This document shows positions 19,334 through 32,616 of a DNA stretch of 64,000 nucleotides, one piece after another. The notes under the pieces are model-generated. The model ran no database searches. It had not been told where the DNA came from and worked only from the letters and a program-made list of their open reading frames with translations. Positions within the stretch are counted from its first letter, which is position 1; each line of letters begins with the position of its first letter. The position numbers and the translations under genes are program-made. This DNA is from Magnetovibrio blakemorei (lineage in GTDB: Bacteria > Pseudomonadota > Alphaproteobacteria > Rhodospirillales > Magnetovibrionaceae): positions 1-64,000 of the forward strand of contig NZ_MCGG01000029.1 in the NCBI RefSeq assembly GCF_001746755.1, in the 5' to 3' direction.

Positions 19334-20068
19334 ATGAAAACAAGAATAAACTTCACCGCACTTACATCGTCTTTAGCGACCGCGTTGGTCGCCACCATGA
19401 TGCTGACCACGCCTGCCGCAGCAGCGGATAAGGCCGCAGGCTGGAACGAGGGCGGCGGCGAGCAAGACGAAGCATTGCACCTGACACCAAACCTGGAAAA
19501 TGGCATTGAGGTGTATGAAGTTTGCGCCGCTTGTCACCTTTACGAAGGCTGGGGCCAACCCGACGGCACCTTCCCGCAATTGGCTGGTCAGCACAGACAT
19601 GTGCTCATCAAACAGTTGGCGGACATTCGCGCGTTAAACCGCGATAACCCAACCATGTATCCGTTTGCTCTGCCCGAATCCATTGGTGGACCGCAGTCTA
19701 TCGCCGACGTGACGGCATACATCGCAACCTTGCCGATGAACCCGGAACCGGGTCGTGGACCAGGCACCGATTTGGAGCATGGCAAGCAGCTTTACAAAGA
19801 CAACTGCGTGCGCTGCCACGGTGAGCACGGCGAAGGTGTGGAAGAAAAATATTACCCTCGCATCCAGGGCCAGCATTACAACTACCTGATGCGTCAATTT
19901 GCCTGGATCCGTGACGGCAAACGCCGCAACGCCAACCCCGACATGGTCAAACAGATCCAAGAGTTTTCAGACAAAGACATGGCCGCCGTTTTGGATTACG
20001 TGTCGCGTCAGCAGCCGCCAGCCGACAAGCTTGGCGTGGTCGGTTGGGAAAACCCTGACTTTAAATAA
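19334..20068 (+). CDS. Dihaem c-type cytochrome of the nos operon (second)
   Basis: A 244-residue exported protein with a signal peptide ending about TTPAAAA and two haem sites, CAACH (64-68) and CVRCH (158-162). Tryptophan and acidic-rich insertions (KAAGWNEGGGEQDE) follow the signal peptide. It is related to its upstream neighbour in domain plan but not a close copy. It is likely periplasmic and an electron carrier to NosZ or from the NosG/NosH branch. A ribosome binding site GGAG precedes the start. A stem-loop ends this part of the operon. Confidence 0.86.
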   Translation: MKTRINFTALTSSLATALVATMMLTTPAAAADKAAGWNEGGGEQDEALHLTPNLENGIEVYEVCAACHLYEGWGQPDGTFPQLAGQHRHVLIKQLADIRALNRDNPTMYPFALPESIGGPQSIADVTAYIATLPMNPEPGRGPGTDLEHGKQLYKDNCVRCHGEHGEGVEEKYYPRIQGQHYNYLMRQFAWIRDGKRRNANPDMVKQIQEFSDKDMAAVLDYVSRQQPPADKLGVVGWENPDFK

Positions 20069-27196: not shown

Positions 27197-28141
27197 CTAG
27201 AGCACAAACAAACCTGCCGCAGTTGTCAGGGCGAACAAGCCTTGAAATTTGACCGTAGTGCCGAGTAACGGGTTTAGGGCTACTCCGGGTTCTGTTGCGC
27301 GAAATGCGCGGATGGCTTTGAGCGCAAGGGGGATCGTCGCCAGTCCACACAGGGCACCGGGGAAGACGGTTTGGGTCGCAACCCCCATACTCAAAAGCAC
27401 AAACGGTGCGAGCATCAATACGCTATACAAAGAGCGCGACGCGTTGAGGCCAATGCGGATGGCGACGGTGCGTCGCCCAGCGTCTTTGTCGCCCTTCATG
27501 TCGCGCACGTTGTTGAGCAACAACACCCCCCCCGCAGGCAGACCCATGGCGCCCCCCAACAGCACCGCAGCGTCGGAGACTTCGCCCGTTTGCAGGTAAT
27601 AGGTCCCGGCGACGGCGAAAACACCAAAAAAACCAATCACGACCGCCTCTCCAAACGGGGAGTGTGAGATGGGATAAGGGCCGTGGGAATACAGATAGCC
27701 TGCGCCGAGCGAAGCGAGTCCTAAGAAAAATATCGGCCAGCCGCCAATGCCGATCAAGTGGAGGCCGCCCAAAAGGGCCAGCAAAAAAAGGCTTAGGCCT
27801 GCTGCCGACACCTGGTGGGGCAAAGCCCAACCCAAAGCCGTAATGCGGGGCGGGCCAAGGCGCTTTGTTCCTCCCAGCCCATCCGTGCCGTTGACAAAAT
27901 CTTGGGCATCGTTGAACAGATTGGTGGCGATTTGAATGGCGATGGCGCACAGCAAAATAACTGCGGGAACCTCCATATGGGGCATGGGTTGGGACTGAGT
28001 GGCGTGCTCGCTCCACGCCAGCGCCGTGCCCACCAGCACTGGACTGACGGCCATCCCCAATGTTTTGGGGCGGATCGCTTGCCACCATACTCCCAAATTT
28101 GACGGTCGTGCAGGCGGGGAGGGGGGGGGCGTATCGCTCAT
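27197..28141 (-). CDS. menA: MenA-type prenyltransferase (1,4-dihydroxy-2-naphthoate prenyltransferase family)
   Basis: This is a UbiA-superfamily inner-membrane prenyltransferase with about eight or nine spans. The Asp-rich motifs are visible as NLFNDAQDFVNGTDG and NNVRDMKGDKDAGRRT, the second being characteristic of MenA rather than UbiA. The length of 314 residues fits MenA. The ATG at 28141 is chosen over a TTG nine bases upstream. It converges on the nos operon and is codirectional with the TlpA and cytochrome genes. A menaquinone enzyme in an otherwise ubiquinone-type group is notable, because menaquinol is the usual donor in clade II N2O reducers. A futalosine-pathway role (mqnP) is also possible. 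Confidence 0.75.
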   Translation of the reverse strand: MSDTPPPSPPARPSNLGVWWQAIRPKTLGMAVSPVLVGTALAWSEHATQSQPMPHMEVPAVILLCAIAIQIATNLFNDAQDFVNGTDGLGGTKRLGPPRITALGWALPHQVSAAGLSLFLLALLGGLHLIGIGGWPIFFLGLASLGAGYLYSHGPYPISHSPFGEAVVIGFFGVFAVAGTYYLQTGEVSDAAVLLGGAMGLPAGGVLLLNNVRDMKGDKDAGRRTVAIRIGLNASRSLYSVLMLAPFVLLSMGVATQTVFPGALCGLATIPLALKAIRAFRATEPGVALNPLLGTTVKFQGLFALTTAAGLFVL

Positions 28142-28304
28142 GTAAACCAAGTGTCCCGAAATAAATCAAAGAGGCACAGTTTACAGGCACATGGGAAAAA
28201 TCGTTACGTAAAATATGGGTTGATTGGGGTTGGTGTTCGGGCAACCCTATGTGGACAAGGTCGGCCTGGGCAGGATCCGTGCTCTGGGTCCGTGCTCTGG
28301 GCCC

Positions 28305-28817
28305 TTATTTCAGCAGAGGAACAACAAAGCGGTTGAGCGCCGCTTCACTGAAGGTTCCGCGTTGCACGTAAGGGATTGATCCATCCGGCGCAATGATCAC
28401 CGTATAGGGCACTTCGCCAAGCGCGTTGCCCCATGCGGCCATGATGGCACTGCCCGCGGTGCCGCTGGTCAGCACCGGATAGGGGATCTCCAACGAGTTG
28501 GCAAAATTGCTTAACTTGTGGGGATCGTCCAGACCAACGCCGATCACTTGCAGCCCTTCCGTTTTATGGGCTTTGTGCCATTTTTTCAGGTCACGAATTT
28601 CCGCCTGACAGGGCGCACACCACGTGGCAAAGAAATTCAGCATGATGACCTTGCCCTTCCATTCGGAAAGGGTGTGGACTTTGCCGTGTATATCGGTCAG
28701 TCGGGCATCCATCAGGGCTCCGGCTTGGGCAGGATGATTGCCCGCCGCCCAAGATGGAGGAGCAAAAGCCAACAGGGCTGCGAAGATAAGAGCCAGTATG
28801 GTCAATTTATTTGTCAT
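28305..28817 (-). CDS. TlpA/ResA-like periplasmic thioredoxin
   Basis: A 170-residue exported thioredoxin-fold protein: a signal peptide (ILALIFAALLAFAPPSWAA), then LNFFATWCAPCQAEIRDL with the active-site Cys-Ala-Pro-Cys, and the cis-Pro region near YPVLTSG and EVPYTVIIAPDG. Such proteins reduce haem-binding Cys of apocytochromes or copper-site Cys. It overlaps the parvulin gene by 11 bases, so the two are coupled, and both follow a seven-haem cytochrome; assistance in haem attachment is likely. It could instead serve NosZ/SCO. Confidence 0.83.
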   Translation of the reverse strand: MTNKLTILALIFAALLAFAPPSWAAGNHPAQAGALMDARLTDIHGKVHTLSEWKGKVIMLNFFATWCAPCQAEIRDLKKWHKAHKTEGLQVIGVGLDDPHKLSNFANSLEIPYPVLTSGTAGSAIMAAWGNALGEVPYTVIIAPDGSIPYVQRGTFSEAALNRFVVPLLK

Positions 28818-30117
28818 TGTTTTGGGCCATCGGCAGTTTCCAGTCGACGGTGAACTGGGTGCTCAGTTGGTTGACGAACATGATCAGGTTTTCTTGGAAG
28901 ATCTGCTGATGTAAGCGGTCTTTGATGACCTCAAACGGCCGTTGTTGGGATTTGCTGCGCCCGTAAATGGCGACCAGATGATAGCCATGGGCGGTCTTGA
29001 TGACCGGGCTCAGCTCACCATCTTTAAGATCTTTAATGGCAGTTTCAATTTCCGCCATACCGGAGCCTTCTTTGACCCAGCCCATGTCGCCCTTGTTCTG
29101 GCGGCCAATGGGATCGATGGAATGTTCTCCAGCGAGAACGTACAGGCTTTCTCCCGCAAGAATGCGTTTGTGTAAGGCTTCGGCTTCATCCGCTGTCGCC
29201 ACGACGATTTGCGCCACATGACGCACTTCGGGTACATATCCGATGCCGGGATGGTTTTTGAAATAAGCCTGCAAGATGTCGTCGGTGACCCATTCTGAAT
29301 CCATGTGTTCAAGCAACAAAGCGGGAAGCCGTTCTGCACGAAAGGCAGCCAGAATGGCGCTCACATCCAGGGCCTCGGCCTCGGCGGCGCGGACCACCAG
29401 TTCGAGCTCGACGGCATTGAACAGTCGATCACGCAGCACATGCTCGTCGTCGGATGTTTTTAAGGCATCCTCGCCTAAGATGTCGGACAACCGTAGATTC
29501 AGGTTATCGGCTTGGGCCAGAACCGTATCGGAGGCCGCGCCGATCTTGAGGCGATCATCATGCATGACCAAATGGTAGCGGGTTTTCAAATTTTCCAGCG
29601 CCAGTGCCCGCAACACCCGGTACTGGGCGCTGATGTATGCGTTTTGGGCAGGTTCCAGCGCTTCGGGTTGATCCTTTAGGGTTTCAGCGAGTTCGGCCAA
29701 TTTAGCTTCGGGTATGCGAATGTCGGCACGCAGCTTGTCCATGTATGCCCGATACAAAATACCGCGTTTATAGGCACTCATCTGGGTGAGATACGCCGGG
29801 TCGTTATCCAGTCCGCGGCGTTCCGCTTCGAGCAACAACAGCTGTCCGGCCACCAGTCGTTTTAAGATGTCGCCACGCAGTGCCGCTTGATCGTTTGGAT
29901 CCATGGCGGGGAATTGGACAGAAAACGTTGAACTGCCAATGGCTGTTTCCAAATCCGTCATGGTGATGGGGCGCTCACCCACCAAAACCAGAACTTGATC
30001 TTGATCCAAAGCGGAGGCGGAGGTTGCCCAGGGCAAAGTGGCACTCAGCAGAACGCCCAAAATGGCCCCCAAAACTGTCGAGGAAACCCAACGTTGCGGC
30101 GTGAAAGATGTGCTCAT
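28807..30117 (-). CDS. Exported parvulin-type peptidyl-prolyl isomerase
   Basis: A 436-residue protein with a hydrophobic N-terminal segment (VLGAILGVLLSATLPWATSA), a long helical chaperone-like region with a SurA-type charged character, and a C-terminal parvulin domain at about residues 285-375 (RHVAQIVVATADEAEALHKR, GRQNKGDMGWV, KTAHGYHLVAIYG). It probably acts in the periplasm as a folding factor. The ATG at 30117 places the hydrophobic segment near the start; a start at 30186 is less likely. It lies 90 bases after the multihaem gene, whose terminator falls in between, and is coupled to the TlpA-like gene. Confidence 0.82.
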   Translation of the reverse strand: MSTSFTPQRWVSSTVLGAILGVLLSATLPWATSASALDQDQVLVLVGERPITMTDLETAIGSSTFSVQFPAMDPNDQAALRGDILKRLVAGQLLLLEAERRGLDNDPAYLTQMSAYKRGILYRAYMDKLRADIRIPEAKLAELAETLKDQPEALEPAQNAYISAQYRVLRALALENLKTRYHLVMHDDRLKIGAASDTVLAQADNLNLRLSDILGEDALKTSDDEHVLRDRLFNAVELELVVRAAEAEALDVSAILAAFRAERLPALLLEHMDSEWVTDDILQAYFKNHPGIGYVPEVRHVAQIVVATADEAEALHKRILAGESLYVLAGEHSIDPIGRQNKGDMGWVKEGSGMAEIETAIKDLKDGELSPVIKTAHGYHLVAIYGRSKSQQRPFEVIKDRLHQQIFQENLIMFVNQLSTQFTVDWKLPMAQNNDK

Positions 30118-30145
30118 CGATAGATACGTCCTTAGGTTTAGAAAA

Positions 30146-30170
30146 TTCGGGGGGCAAAATGCCCCCCGAA
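30146..30170 (-). terminator. Intrinsic terminator after the seven-haem cytochrome gene
   Basis: Arms TTCGGGGGGC and GCCCCCCGAA form a perfect 10-bp stem around a five-base loop, followed on the minus strand by TTTTC. It separates the multihaem gene from the parvulin gene and would lower expression of the two assembly-type genes relative to the cytochrome. Confidence 0.75.
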
Positions 30171-30207
30171 CTTCGTCAGTGTACATGAGTCGTATGGTCC
30201 TGGAGCC

Positions 30208-32616
30208 TTATTCAGATTCCGGAACCTTGCCACCCACGTCGGCGGCGCTACCGTGCATCCACGAAACTGCGGCGTCGAAGTCGTTCAAGATCGGCTTGCC
30301 GTTCCAGACATGCTTTTCCTTGTTGGCCACGAACGGCACACCATTTTCGTTACTCACATGACACGCTGCGCATTTGAGCGGGCCGTGTGAACCGTCCGGG
30401 TTGTACTGGGCGGCTTGACGATAAGAGGTGGTATCCGTGCTCGGCGTTACCGGGTAGAGGCCGTGTGTGGACTCATGGCAAGCCTGACAAGACAGACCCT
30501 GGTGACCTTTGGAATAGCGCATCACGCTATACTTGCCGGGCTGGTTGATCGGGTAGGCAACGCCGCCCTGACCTTCCACGTACGGTGCCGCATGGCAATC
30601 TGCGCAGTGCGGCGCACCTGGGGACAGCCAGTAGTCACGGCCGTGTGTGGCCGCTTCATACGGAACTGCCGTAGCACCCGTTGCCCCTTCAGGCAACGTC
30701 AGAGATTTGATGTCAACCGCCGGGTTGGCCGACAATATGGCGACGCTGATATCACCGTCTTCATCCTTGGAAACCATCGGTCCATCGCCCTTCAGCGCAA
30801 TCACGCCGATGTCGGGAACCAGGCGTTTTTTCGCCCAGGTCAGCAAAATGCCGGACTTGCCTGGGGTGTCTTGGCCCTTGCTGTCGAGGACAACTTTCGG
30901 ATCCAAGTATTTGGTTTCCAATTCCTTCGTGGAAACGCCGATGGCTTTCGCAATTTCGTCCAAAGACTTGTTGCGCAAGGTTTCGCCGGTTTGCATGAAG
31001 GCGTTTTGCAGGTTGTCGCGCTGATACAGTTCACGAGACAATTGGCTGTGACAGTTCGTACACCACAGACCCTTGCCTTTTTTACCGTTACCGATGTTTG
31101 AGACATTGGCCTGGAGCCATTTACCGATGGCGTTGAGATGCTCAGGCGTTTCTGCGCCGTCGGTATCTTTACCCGGGTTGGCGTGAACGTCACGGCCAAC
31201 GTAGCAGCCACCGGCAGCGTCGCGGTTATCACGTGTGGCGTAGGCATTTTTGCCGTCTGCCGTGATCGGATAGCCCTGCATGCCGCCATCTTGACGGTGA
31301 GCCGGGTGGCAACCTTGGCACGATGCGGTACGGCCCTCGCTGTCGGGCATCGGTTGTTTGAGAAGGTGCACACTGTGCATGGCTTCGGTCAGTGGCACGA
31401 TGGGACGGCCTTTGTCTTCCGGCTTGGCTTTGTCGCCGAGCACGTCGCCGACGGTGCGGGAATTCAGCACGCCAATAACGTTGTCCGCATGACATTTCTG
31501 ACACAACACCGGATCACGACCGATGCGGTTTGATGTACTGCCGCTTTTCATGTCGTAGTTTTTCAAGAAGCTCGTGCCATTTTTGTCATCATGAATTTGC
31601 AAGATGGAAACGGCGGAAGCCTTCACCGAAGCAATCCAGTCGCTTGCGCCTAAGCCTTTCCAAAATGCCAATTCGTTTTCGTACAGTTTGTACTTGTCGC
31701 CATTGGCGGTTTTGGTGCCGTGGCAGTTGGCGCAGTTGGGAATGTCGATCGGGTTGTCGCCGACGAACATCACCGGTTGGCCGGTGTGGCTGTCGATGAC
31801 AGGTGCGCCGGTTTCGGCATCCAGCAATTTAACCCAAGCTTCTTGGAACGGCTGGACGTCGCTTTCCACCAATGTCAGCGGATCCTTGTTGATCGCTTCG
31901 TCATTGAACGGTGTCAGCGGTAAGCCCAAGGCGTCCCAAATTCCGGGGTTGGTCAAAACGATCGGCACGTTATCCAAGACCGGAGACTTGGTGTACACCA
32001 CGGTGCCGCTCTTGTTGCCGGAATAGGTCAGAAAGCCACCGAACATCGGTGCGCCGCTCGGACCGGAATCGCGGGGCACTTTAATCTGCTTGCCGATAAA
32101 CAGTTTTTTGGCATCCGCGCTGGTGCCCTCAGGGTTGCTGCCTTCGAGGTCTTTGTAGATGTACAGGTGGGTGAAATACGCGTTGGCGACGCTTTCACCA
32201 GGTTCGTATGTCCCGTTACCGTTCACGTCGTAAGGCACATCCCAGTATTTCAGCTTGCCACCTTCGGAGTAGTTGTTGCCAACATGACCGTAAGCAAGCT
32301 TGAAACGATTTCTCTTATCCTGCAAGACCGTCGGGTCCTTCGGATCGGCTTCCAAAAGGCGCGGTGTCTGGGTTGCGCGTGTTGAGTTTTTGACCACCTG
32401 CGCCTGAACCGAGTTGTATGGCGGCAGCACGCAGCACGCACTGAAATCAAAGCCGGTACAGTGCATACCCAGCTCATAGTTGATGGTGATGTTGTAGTCG
32501 TTTTTTGGATTGATGGTTTTTTCCGCAACAGCGTCAGCCGCCGTGGCTGGTTGCTGGGCAACAGCAACAAATAAGCCGACCGCTAACGCGATCGACGAAA
32601 CGTAAACGTTTCGCAT
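30208..32616 (-). CDS. Seven-haem c-type cytochrome, uncharacterised
   Basis: An 802-residue exported protein with a signal peptide ending near QQPATAADA. There are seven CxxCH sites: CANCH (295), CQKCH (372), CQGCH (433), CTNCH (519), CADCH (671), CQACH (710) and CAACH (749). The first 290 residues carry no haem but contain a conserved-looking Cys cluster, ELGMHCTGFDFSACCVLPPY (47-66), suggestive of a metal or disulphide site. Spacing is irregular, unlike NrfA, OmcS or MtrA. Its partners are a parvulin, a TlpA-like thioredoxin and MenA. The role is unknown; a periplasmic electron store or a terminal oxidoreductase is possible. Promoter sequences should lie in the 286 bases upstream of 32616, where I see no regulator box. 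Confidence 0.85.
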   Translation of the reverse strand: MRNVYVSSIALAVGLFVAVAQQPATAADAVAEKTINPKNDYNITINYELGMHCTGFDFSACCVLPPYNSVQAQVVKNSTRATQTPRLLEADPKDPTVLQDKRNRFKLAYGHVGNNYSEGGKLKYWDVPYDVNGNGTYEPGESVANAYFTHLYIYKDLEGSNPEGTSADAKKLFIGKQIKVPRDSGPSGAPMFGGFLTYSGNKSGTVVYTKSPVLDNVPIVLTNPGIWDALGLPLTPFNDEAINKDPLTLVESDVQPFQEAWVKLLDAETGAPVIDSHTGQPVMFVGDNPIDIPNCANCHGTKTANGDKYKLYENELAFWKGLGASDWIASVKASAVSILQIHDDKNGTSFLKNYDMKSGSTSNRIGRDPVLCQKCHADNVIGVLNSRTVGDVLGDKAKPEDKGRPIVPLTEAMHSVHLLKQPMPDSEGRTASCQGCHPAHRQDGGMQGYPITADGKNAYATRDNRDAAGGCYVGRDVHANPGKDTDGAETPEHLNAIGKWLQANVSNIGNGKKGKGLWCTNCHSQLSRELYQRDNLQNAFMQTGETLRNKSLDEIAKAIGVSTKELETKYLDPKVVLDSKGQDTPGKSGILLTWAKKRLVPDIGVIALKGDGPMVSKDEDGDISVAILSANPAVDIKSLTLPEGATGATAVPYEAATHGRDYWLSPGAPHCADCHAAPYVEGQGGVAYPINQPGKYSVMRYSKGHQGLSCQACHESTHGLYPVTPSTDTTSYRQAAQYNPDGSHGPLKCAACHVSNENGVPFVANKEKHVWNGKPILNDFDAAVSWMHGSAADVGGKVPESE

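Follow-up and report, generated by a model that had tools for sequence, protein, structure and literature searches.

The window analysed here, a 64,000-nucleotide stretch of Magnetovibrio blakemorei DNA, carries at positions 27197-32616 four leftward genes, all called on the minus strand, the first of which encodes a seven-haem c-type cytochrome. This gene (30208..32616) specifies 802 residues with a Sec-type signal peptide, a haem-free, beta-rich head and seven CxxCH motifs. Next to it is the gene of a parvulin, a PpiC/SurA-type peptidyl-prolyl isomerase with a signal peptide and a Rotamase domain (PF00639, 5.8e-14); its longest reading spans 28807-30186, but the ATG at 30117, which precedes the signal peptide, is the likelier start (28807..30117). 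The start of the third gene (28305..28817), encoding a TlpA/ResA-like periplasmic thioredoxin with the motif WCAPC, overlaps the end of the parvulin gene by 11 bases, and about 160 bases separate it from the gene of a MenA-type 1,4-dihydroxy-2-naphthoate prenyltransferase (27197..28150 as an open frame, 27197..28141 as a gene), a neighbour judged to lie outside the cassette. A perfect, GC-rich stem-loop, TTCGGGGGGCATTTTGCCCCCCGAA (30146..30170, minus strand), is located just past the cytochrome stop codon and ahead of the parvulin gene. The sequence in front of the cytochrome gene, when inspected, contains no FNR-type box. The original prediction for this DNA had placed all four genes correctly.

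The CxxCH motifs of the cytochrome are at residues 295, 372, 433, 519, 671, 710 and 749, and the first 294 or so residues are haem-free, which bears out the predicted 802 residues, seven haem motifs and haem-free head of about 290 residues. When 84,980 species genomes were scanned by pattern, 136 stretches encoding relatives came up, and the best 80 loci were kept; these loci derive from pattern seeds, and many belong to metagenome-assembled genomes (MAGs), some of them possibly mis-binned. The cytochromes of the 80 loci share 56-76% identity along practically their full length, and because they also keep the haem motifs, the reading frame is real and not a chance one. All seven CxxCH motifs are present in every family copy but one, which ends at a contig edge. 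The family has, in addition, a set of conserved non-haem residues: H52, C53, C61, C62 (99%) and C471. The first four sit in an invariant block of the head, NYELGMHCTGFDF.xCC.LPPYNS in the alignment (residues 46-68; 32413..32481, minus strand), and C471 belongs to an insertion of about 50 residues between haems 3 and 4 (residues 452-505; 31102..31263, minus strand) with the invariant pattern DNRD..GGC471...RD.H478.

In Pfam and NCBIfam scans, the cytochrome matches generic haem models only, namely Cytochrome_C7 and the MtrC/MtrF II-IV domain. The c7-like haem triad (PF14522) is found in 62 of 62 members tested and spans residues 669-752, covering haems 5-7 only. The MtrC/MtrF II-IV domain (PF22113), around haems 1-3, scores 33.2 bits against a gathering score of 30 and is matched, weakly, by 61 of the 62 members at E <= 0.001, while Cytochrome_C554 is matched weakly by one. 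The mature cytochrome has a mass of 11.9 kDa per haem, or 7.8 kDa without the head, and its conserved His residues are numerous enough for bis-His ligation of all seven haems. The full-length model, in which haems are not included, is of moderate confidence (predicted template modelling score, pTM, 0.84; predicted local distance difference test, pLDDT, 75.5). Modelled alone, the head is predicted to be a beta-sandwich (pTM 0.79, pLDDT 79.9) in which the MHC...CC loop has the lowest confidence. Foldseek gives no significant match for either the full-length or the head model, the best VIA Z values of 4.8 and 5.1 being within noise. The Calditrichota and Saprospiraceae copies (L084, L085) have lipoprotein-like N-termini (LTSC, FSSC), unlike the window copy.

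The parvulin gene adjoins the cytochrome gene in 60 of the 67 loci that have at least 1.5 kb downstream, the exceptions being L039, L063, L073, L078 and L084-L086. A TlpA-like gene is close to the cytochrome gene in 36 of the 52 loci with 3 kb; in the methanotroph loci it is inverted but retains its adjacency. Because of these two counts, the cytochrome-parvulin-TlpA set is real, and it recurs across phyla, one of the points on which the original prediction turned. Since both helpers recur with the cytochrome in this way, to call them dedicated to it was a fair inference. The TlpA-like protein has a signal-like N-terminus and matches AhpC-TSA/Redoxin with E about 1e-21, and it scores under the cut-offs of the ResA, TlpA and DsbE models; no equivalog model reaches its cut-off for either helper. 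Putative roles for both are read from their domains and their co-occurrence with the cytochrome. In 69 of 75 relatives, a stem of at least 7 pairs is likewise found past the stop codon of the cytochrome gene, with a mean fold energy of -41.4 kcal/mol versus -28.6 kcal/mol in mononucleotide shuffles. It is plausible that this stem-loop sets the cytochrome mRNA above the parvulin mRNA, as would suit a client and its helper.

The family is found in Gammaproteobacteria, Betaproteobacteria, Nitrospinota, Calditrichota and Bacteroidota, mainly in sulfur oxidisers and in some methane oxidisers. Its carriers are Sedimenticola-like and Chromatiales bacteria, tubeworm symbionts, Thiotrichaceae, Gallionellaceae and further Betaproteobacteria, Methylococcales, including two Methylobacter isolates, Nitrospinota, Calditrichota and Saprospiraceae. 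Each of the 11 genomes tested has one full-length copy. Among about 840 Pseudomonadota genomes searched, a full-length copy is found in the window genome only; searches of five relatives from the genus and twelve from the family did not find the cytochrome, and the plasmid and viral collections gave no relative. In a maximum-likelihood tree the window protein lies inside a gammaproteobacterial group, beside Sedimenticola and its relatives, with local support of 92-93 (not starred). Since it is absent from all relatives searched and nested in a gammaproteobacterial clade, the three-gene cassette was probably acquired horizontally, a well-supported conclusion and the simplest reading of these sequences. 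Literature searches found no description of the seven-haem family, which is tight and apparently unnamed.

The MenA-type protein matches TIGR00751 with 149.8 bits against a cut-off of 102.15. Its gene is present in five of five genus relatives (split over two pieces in G001), and in three of these, which lack the cytochrome, it stands beside a convergent nos operon. Because of this adjacency MenA is judged not to be a member of the cassette, and its original assignment to the cytochrome unit is not supported. In a Chromatiaceae MAG (L032:7425-8294), a menA gene 39% identical to that of the window directly follows the cytochrome-parvulin-TlpA genes, matching the order in the window, although the window menA looks native to its genus. 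As for nos, nosZ is matched in 29 of 50 carrier genomes, in 4 of them weakly, and absent from 21, and no carrier locus apart from the window has a nosZ gene near the cytochrome. A functional link to nos is thus unsupported by both the occurrence of nosZ and the locus neighbourhoods; the association looks incidental, and MenA and nos are probably bystanders. A further quinol-linked branch had been suggested from the position beside the clade II nos operon. The nos part of that suggestion falls away, while the idea of a further electron-transfer branch stands in altered form: its partners are NapC with dihaem c cytochromes or an oxidase with a dihaem c cytochrome, and its metabolic link is to sulfur, not N2O.

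These partners differ between lineages. In 21 loci, NapC is encoded near the cytochrome, as a rule together with dihaem c cytochromes that are PdsA-like by NCBIfam, though far below the cut-off, and in L052 it is fused to a PdsA-like dihaem c cytochrome. This module is found in the Sedimenticola types, where the dihaem c cytochrome is encoded divergently from the seven-haem one, and in Betaproteobacteria. The Sedimenticola types add an ankyrin-repeat protein; near the cytochrome, such a protein is encoded between NapC and the dihaem c cytochrome in 15 loci (L008, L018-L020, L022, L024, L028, L033, L034, L038, L054, L057, L061, L068 and others). In Methylococcales, the genes ahead of the cytochrome encode CoxII, with a COX2-type domain, CoxI and a dihaem c cytochrome. 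A nitric oxide reductase was considered here and rejected, because CoxI retains the HPxVY tyrosine, which makes an O2 reductase likelier. A copper-type P-ATPase gene adjoins the cytochrome gene in L055, L058, L063, L064 and L071, and four of these loci encode CoxI as well. Ahead of the Calditrichota cytochrome lies the gene of a cytochrome bd-I-like subunit that has a c-haem domain. [NiFe] hydrogenase operons are adjacent in two unrelated lineages (L013:774-4482, and upstream in L085/L086). Elsewhere in the window genome there are four NapC genes, two or more of them beside dihaem c genes. The dihaem c-type cytochrome of its nos operon (19334..20068, plus strand) is 46-54% identical to those of the Sedimenticola-type loci and is a possible electron partner of the seven-haem cytochrome.

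The link to sulfur is stronger than that to nos. dsrA scores over its cut-off in 33 of 50 carrier genomes versus 51 of 299 genomes of a phylum sample (Fisher p about 6e-12, a statistic that ignores relatedness and MAG completeness). The 17 carriers without dsrA include nine of methanotroph type, three Bacteroidota/Calditrichota and one with a truncated dsrA. Of 51 genomes, 33 have soxB, among them those of both Methylobacter isolates and that of the window, which has a dsr operon as well. In the Nitrospinota loci L073, L076 and L079, the cytochrome gene follows dsr genes, which across the three loci encode DsrB, DsrC, a DsrM-like protein, DsrK, a DsrO-type Fe-S protein, a DsrP-like protein and DsrJ; the Nitrospinota class UBA7883 has been reported to carry reverse Dsr (PMC10839748). 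In L083 the cytochrome gene follows TusA and a DsrE-family gene. Two ideas about the Nitrospinota loci were ruled out: the cytochrome does not replace DsrJ, which is encoded in the same gene run, masked by an antisense open reading frame, and an apparent dedicated NrfCD module is the DsrO/DsrP pair of the dsr operon. An exported protein of about 300 residues is encoded just upstream of the cytochrome in Nitrospinota-type loci only (L073, L075, L076, L079 and L082), and has no Pfam match in the two copies tested (L073, L076).

The cassette probably encodes an uncharacterised periplasmic respiratory enzyme. On the favoured, though tentative, reading the cytochrome would be a soluble periplasmic multihaem oxidoreductase, acting as a dehydrogenase, that oxidizes a small reduced compound, most likely inorganic sulfur, and is coupled to the respiratory chain. 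Its mass per haem, the strict conservation of the head and the extra invariant cysteines argue for an enzyme rather than a wire, and a review associates values above a line of about 7 kDa per haem with catalytic multihaem cytochromes (PMC7096707). The oxidative direction is favoured because c-haem-linked oxidase genes adjoin the cytochrome in two unrelated lineages. The reduced compound would give up its electrons at or close to the Cys-rich head and the region of haems 3 and 4. They would then run along the haem chain and through the c7-like triad at the C-terminus, and on to a dihaem c-type cytochrome. From there they would pass to a terminal oxidase in methanotrophs and Calditrichota, or to the quinone pool via NapC in the Sedimenticola types and Betaproteobacteria; quinone reductases of the NapC family do exist (HAO/cM552). 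For the window organism, a dihaem c cytochrome or NapC encoded elsewhere in the genome would be the partner. The parvulin would help the exported apoprotein fold, and the TlpA-like protein would keep the haem-site cysteines, the extra cysteines or both reduced for haem or metal loading.

Several observations weigh against such a sulfur-oxidising role. NapC/NirT proteins are mostly quinol dehydrogenases that feed reductases, which fits the opposite direction; a NapC neighbour favours reduction or quinone exchange, and the hydrogenase genes of L013 and L085/L086 could fit a reductase. The dsrA statistic has the limits given above. Neither dsrA nor soxB occurs in seven of the methanotroph MAGs or in the carriers from Calditrichota and Bacteroidota, so sulfur oxidation by the dsr and sox routes is not required. 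No open catalytic haem can be singled out from a missing His, as there are too many conserved His residues. The first of these points lead to a quinol-driven periplasmic terminal reductase, similar to MccA/SirA or OTR, that would act on tetrathionate, sulfite, polysulfide or another soluble acceptor through a NapC and PdsA-like shuttle. The NapC genes of the 21 loci, often with PdsA-like dihaem c cytochromes and fused to one in L052, are consistent with this, as are the [NiFe] hydrogenase neighbours and the membership of PdsA and CymA in Mtr electron-transfer systems (PMC8805035). However, the replacement of NapC by a haem-copper or bd-like c-haem oxidase in methanotrophs and Calditrichota is hard to explain by a reductase, and the carriers are mostly sulfur oxidisers, which makes this alternative somewhat unlikely.

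Alternatively, the cytochrome might have no substrate of its own and act as a periplasmic electron carrier or capacitor, relaying electrons between c-type cytochromes and the quinone or oxidase modules. The possible bis-His ligation of all haems, the interchangeability of these modules and the Pfam matches to electron-transfer haem domains would suit this role, but 11.9 kDa per haem, a strictly conserved 290-residue head, the invariant non-haem cysteines and the unique conserved insertion would not, and it is considered unlikely. A substrate other than inorganic sulfur, namely a nitrogen, metal or organosulfur compound of oxic-anoxic interfaces, appears quite improbable. The enrichment of sulfur oxidisers would then come from a shared habitat, as the methanotroph MAGs, Saprospiraceae and Calditrichota without dsr or sox and the nosZ matches in carriers might suggest, but the cytochrome gene has dsr genes next to it in Nitrospinota, and TusA and DsrE-family genes in L083, which speaks against it. 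A bolder form of the sulfur-oxidising reading, equally doubtful, makes the family a new class of sulfur dehydrogenase, of the haem-thiol or haem-metal (perhaps copper) type, in which H52-C53...C61-C62 and C471 would form a mononuclear metal or persulfide centre by the haem chain, loaded via the TlpA-like reductant. In reverse-Dsr bacteria and some methanotrophs, such a dehydrogenase would let periplasmic sulfur electrons enter by a route so far unrecognised.

Because it is conserved across several phyla, with a recurring helper set and swappable respiratory modules, the cytochrome probably represents a genuine enzyme that current maps of the respiratory chains of sulfur and methane oxidisers lack. 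Its carriers include tubeworm symbionts, vent Sedimenticola, Gallionellaceae, marine Methylococcales and groundwater Nitrospinota, and it can be tested as a candidate for a sulfur step in the periplasm. The cassette also offers a natural case in which to test whether parvulins and TlpA proteins may be specific to one client.

The cytochrome had been taken for an uncharacterised one, and it indeed matches no characterised multihaem enzyme by sequence. phmmer and profile searches of the Protein Data Bank (PDB) sequences give nothing credible, with no MccA up to E 10 and E 1, and no sequence match to the PDB entries of DsrJ, TsdA and octahaem tetrathionate reductase. None of the NrfA, HAO and OTR family models in Pfam and NCBIfam is matched by the window cytochrome at E <= 0.1. 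The octahaem sulfite reductase MccA/SirA has a parvulin in its gene cluster and a Cys-bound Cu site. Like MccA/SirA, the seven-haem protein is a large periplasmic multihaem c cytochrome with extra cysteines, which in MccA/SirA are functional, and a parvulin is encoded in its cluster in the 60 of 67 testable loci noted above. The MccACD and SirA systems have been described (PMC8076601, PMC6976685). Unlike MccA/SirA, it has seven haems and no eighth CX12-15..CH motif, since Cys 53, 61, 62 and 471 form none; except in Nitrospinota, where the module is DsrO/DsrP, it has no NrfC/NrfD-type module of its own like that of the MccA/SirA cluster, and there is no sequence match to solved MccA.

The weak PF22113 match and the order of a beta domain followed by a haem domain recall MtrC, MtrF and OmcA, and the modelled head appears weakly similar in structure to OmcA and domain III of MtrC, as it does to many generic beta-sandwiches. 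Those decahaem proteins, however, have two pentahaem domains, whereas here there are seven haems, and the window copy has no lipobox. No MtrAB-type porin partner is recognised among the recurring neighbour clusters, in which no systematic porin search was made. DsrJ, TsdA and octahaem tetrathionate reductase share with the cytochrome a sulfur context and one or more conserved non-haem cysteines, but DsrJ is encoded separately in the same genomes. The helpers share their domains with the TlpA/ResA reductants and the SurA/PpiD/PrsA parvulins, and are here a pair tied to the seven-haem cytochrome. Among the closest known systems are cytochromes with 8-9 haems (L112, L113, L114, L116, L117 and L118), which have a homologous head, N[DE]LGMHC...D...LPP[FY]N..., and an alignable haem region. 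Some of them have long N-terminal extensions and two are lipoprotein-like; the only NCBIfam match among the three tested is a weak one, to a decahaem model. These relatives differ in having neither C61/C62 nor the insertion of about 50 residues with C471, and in having another conserved Cys nearby (CLRGAM). The seven-haem family is thus a branch of its own within a superfamily, apparently unnamed, that includes the 8-9-haem cytochromes.

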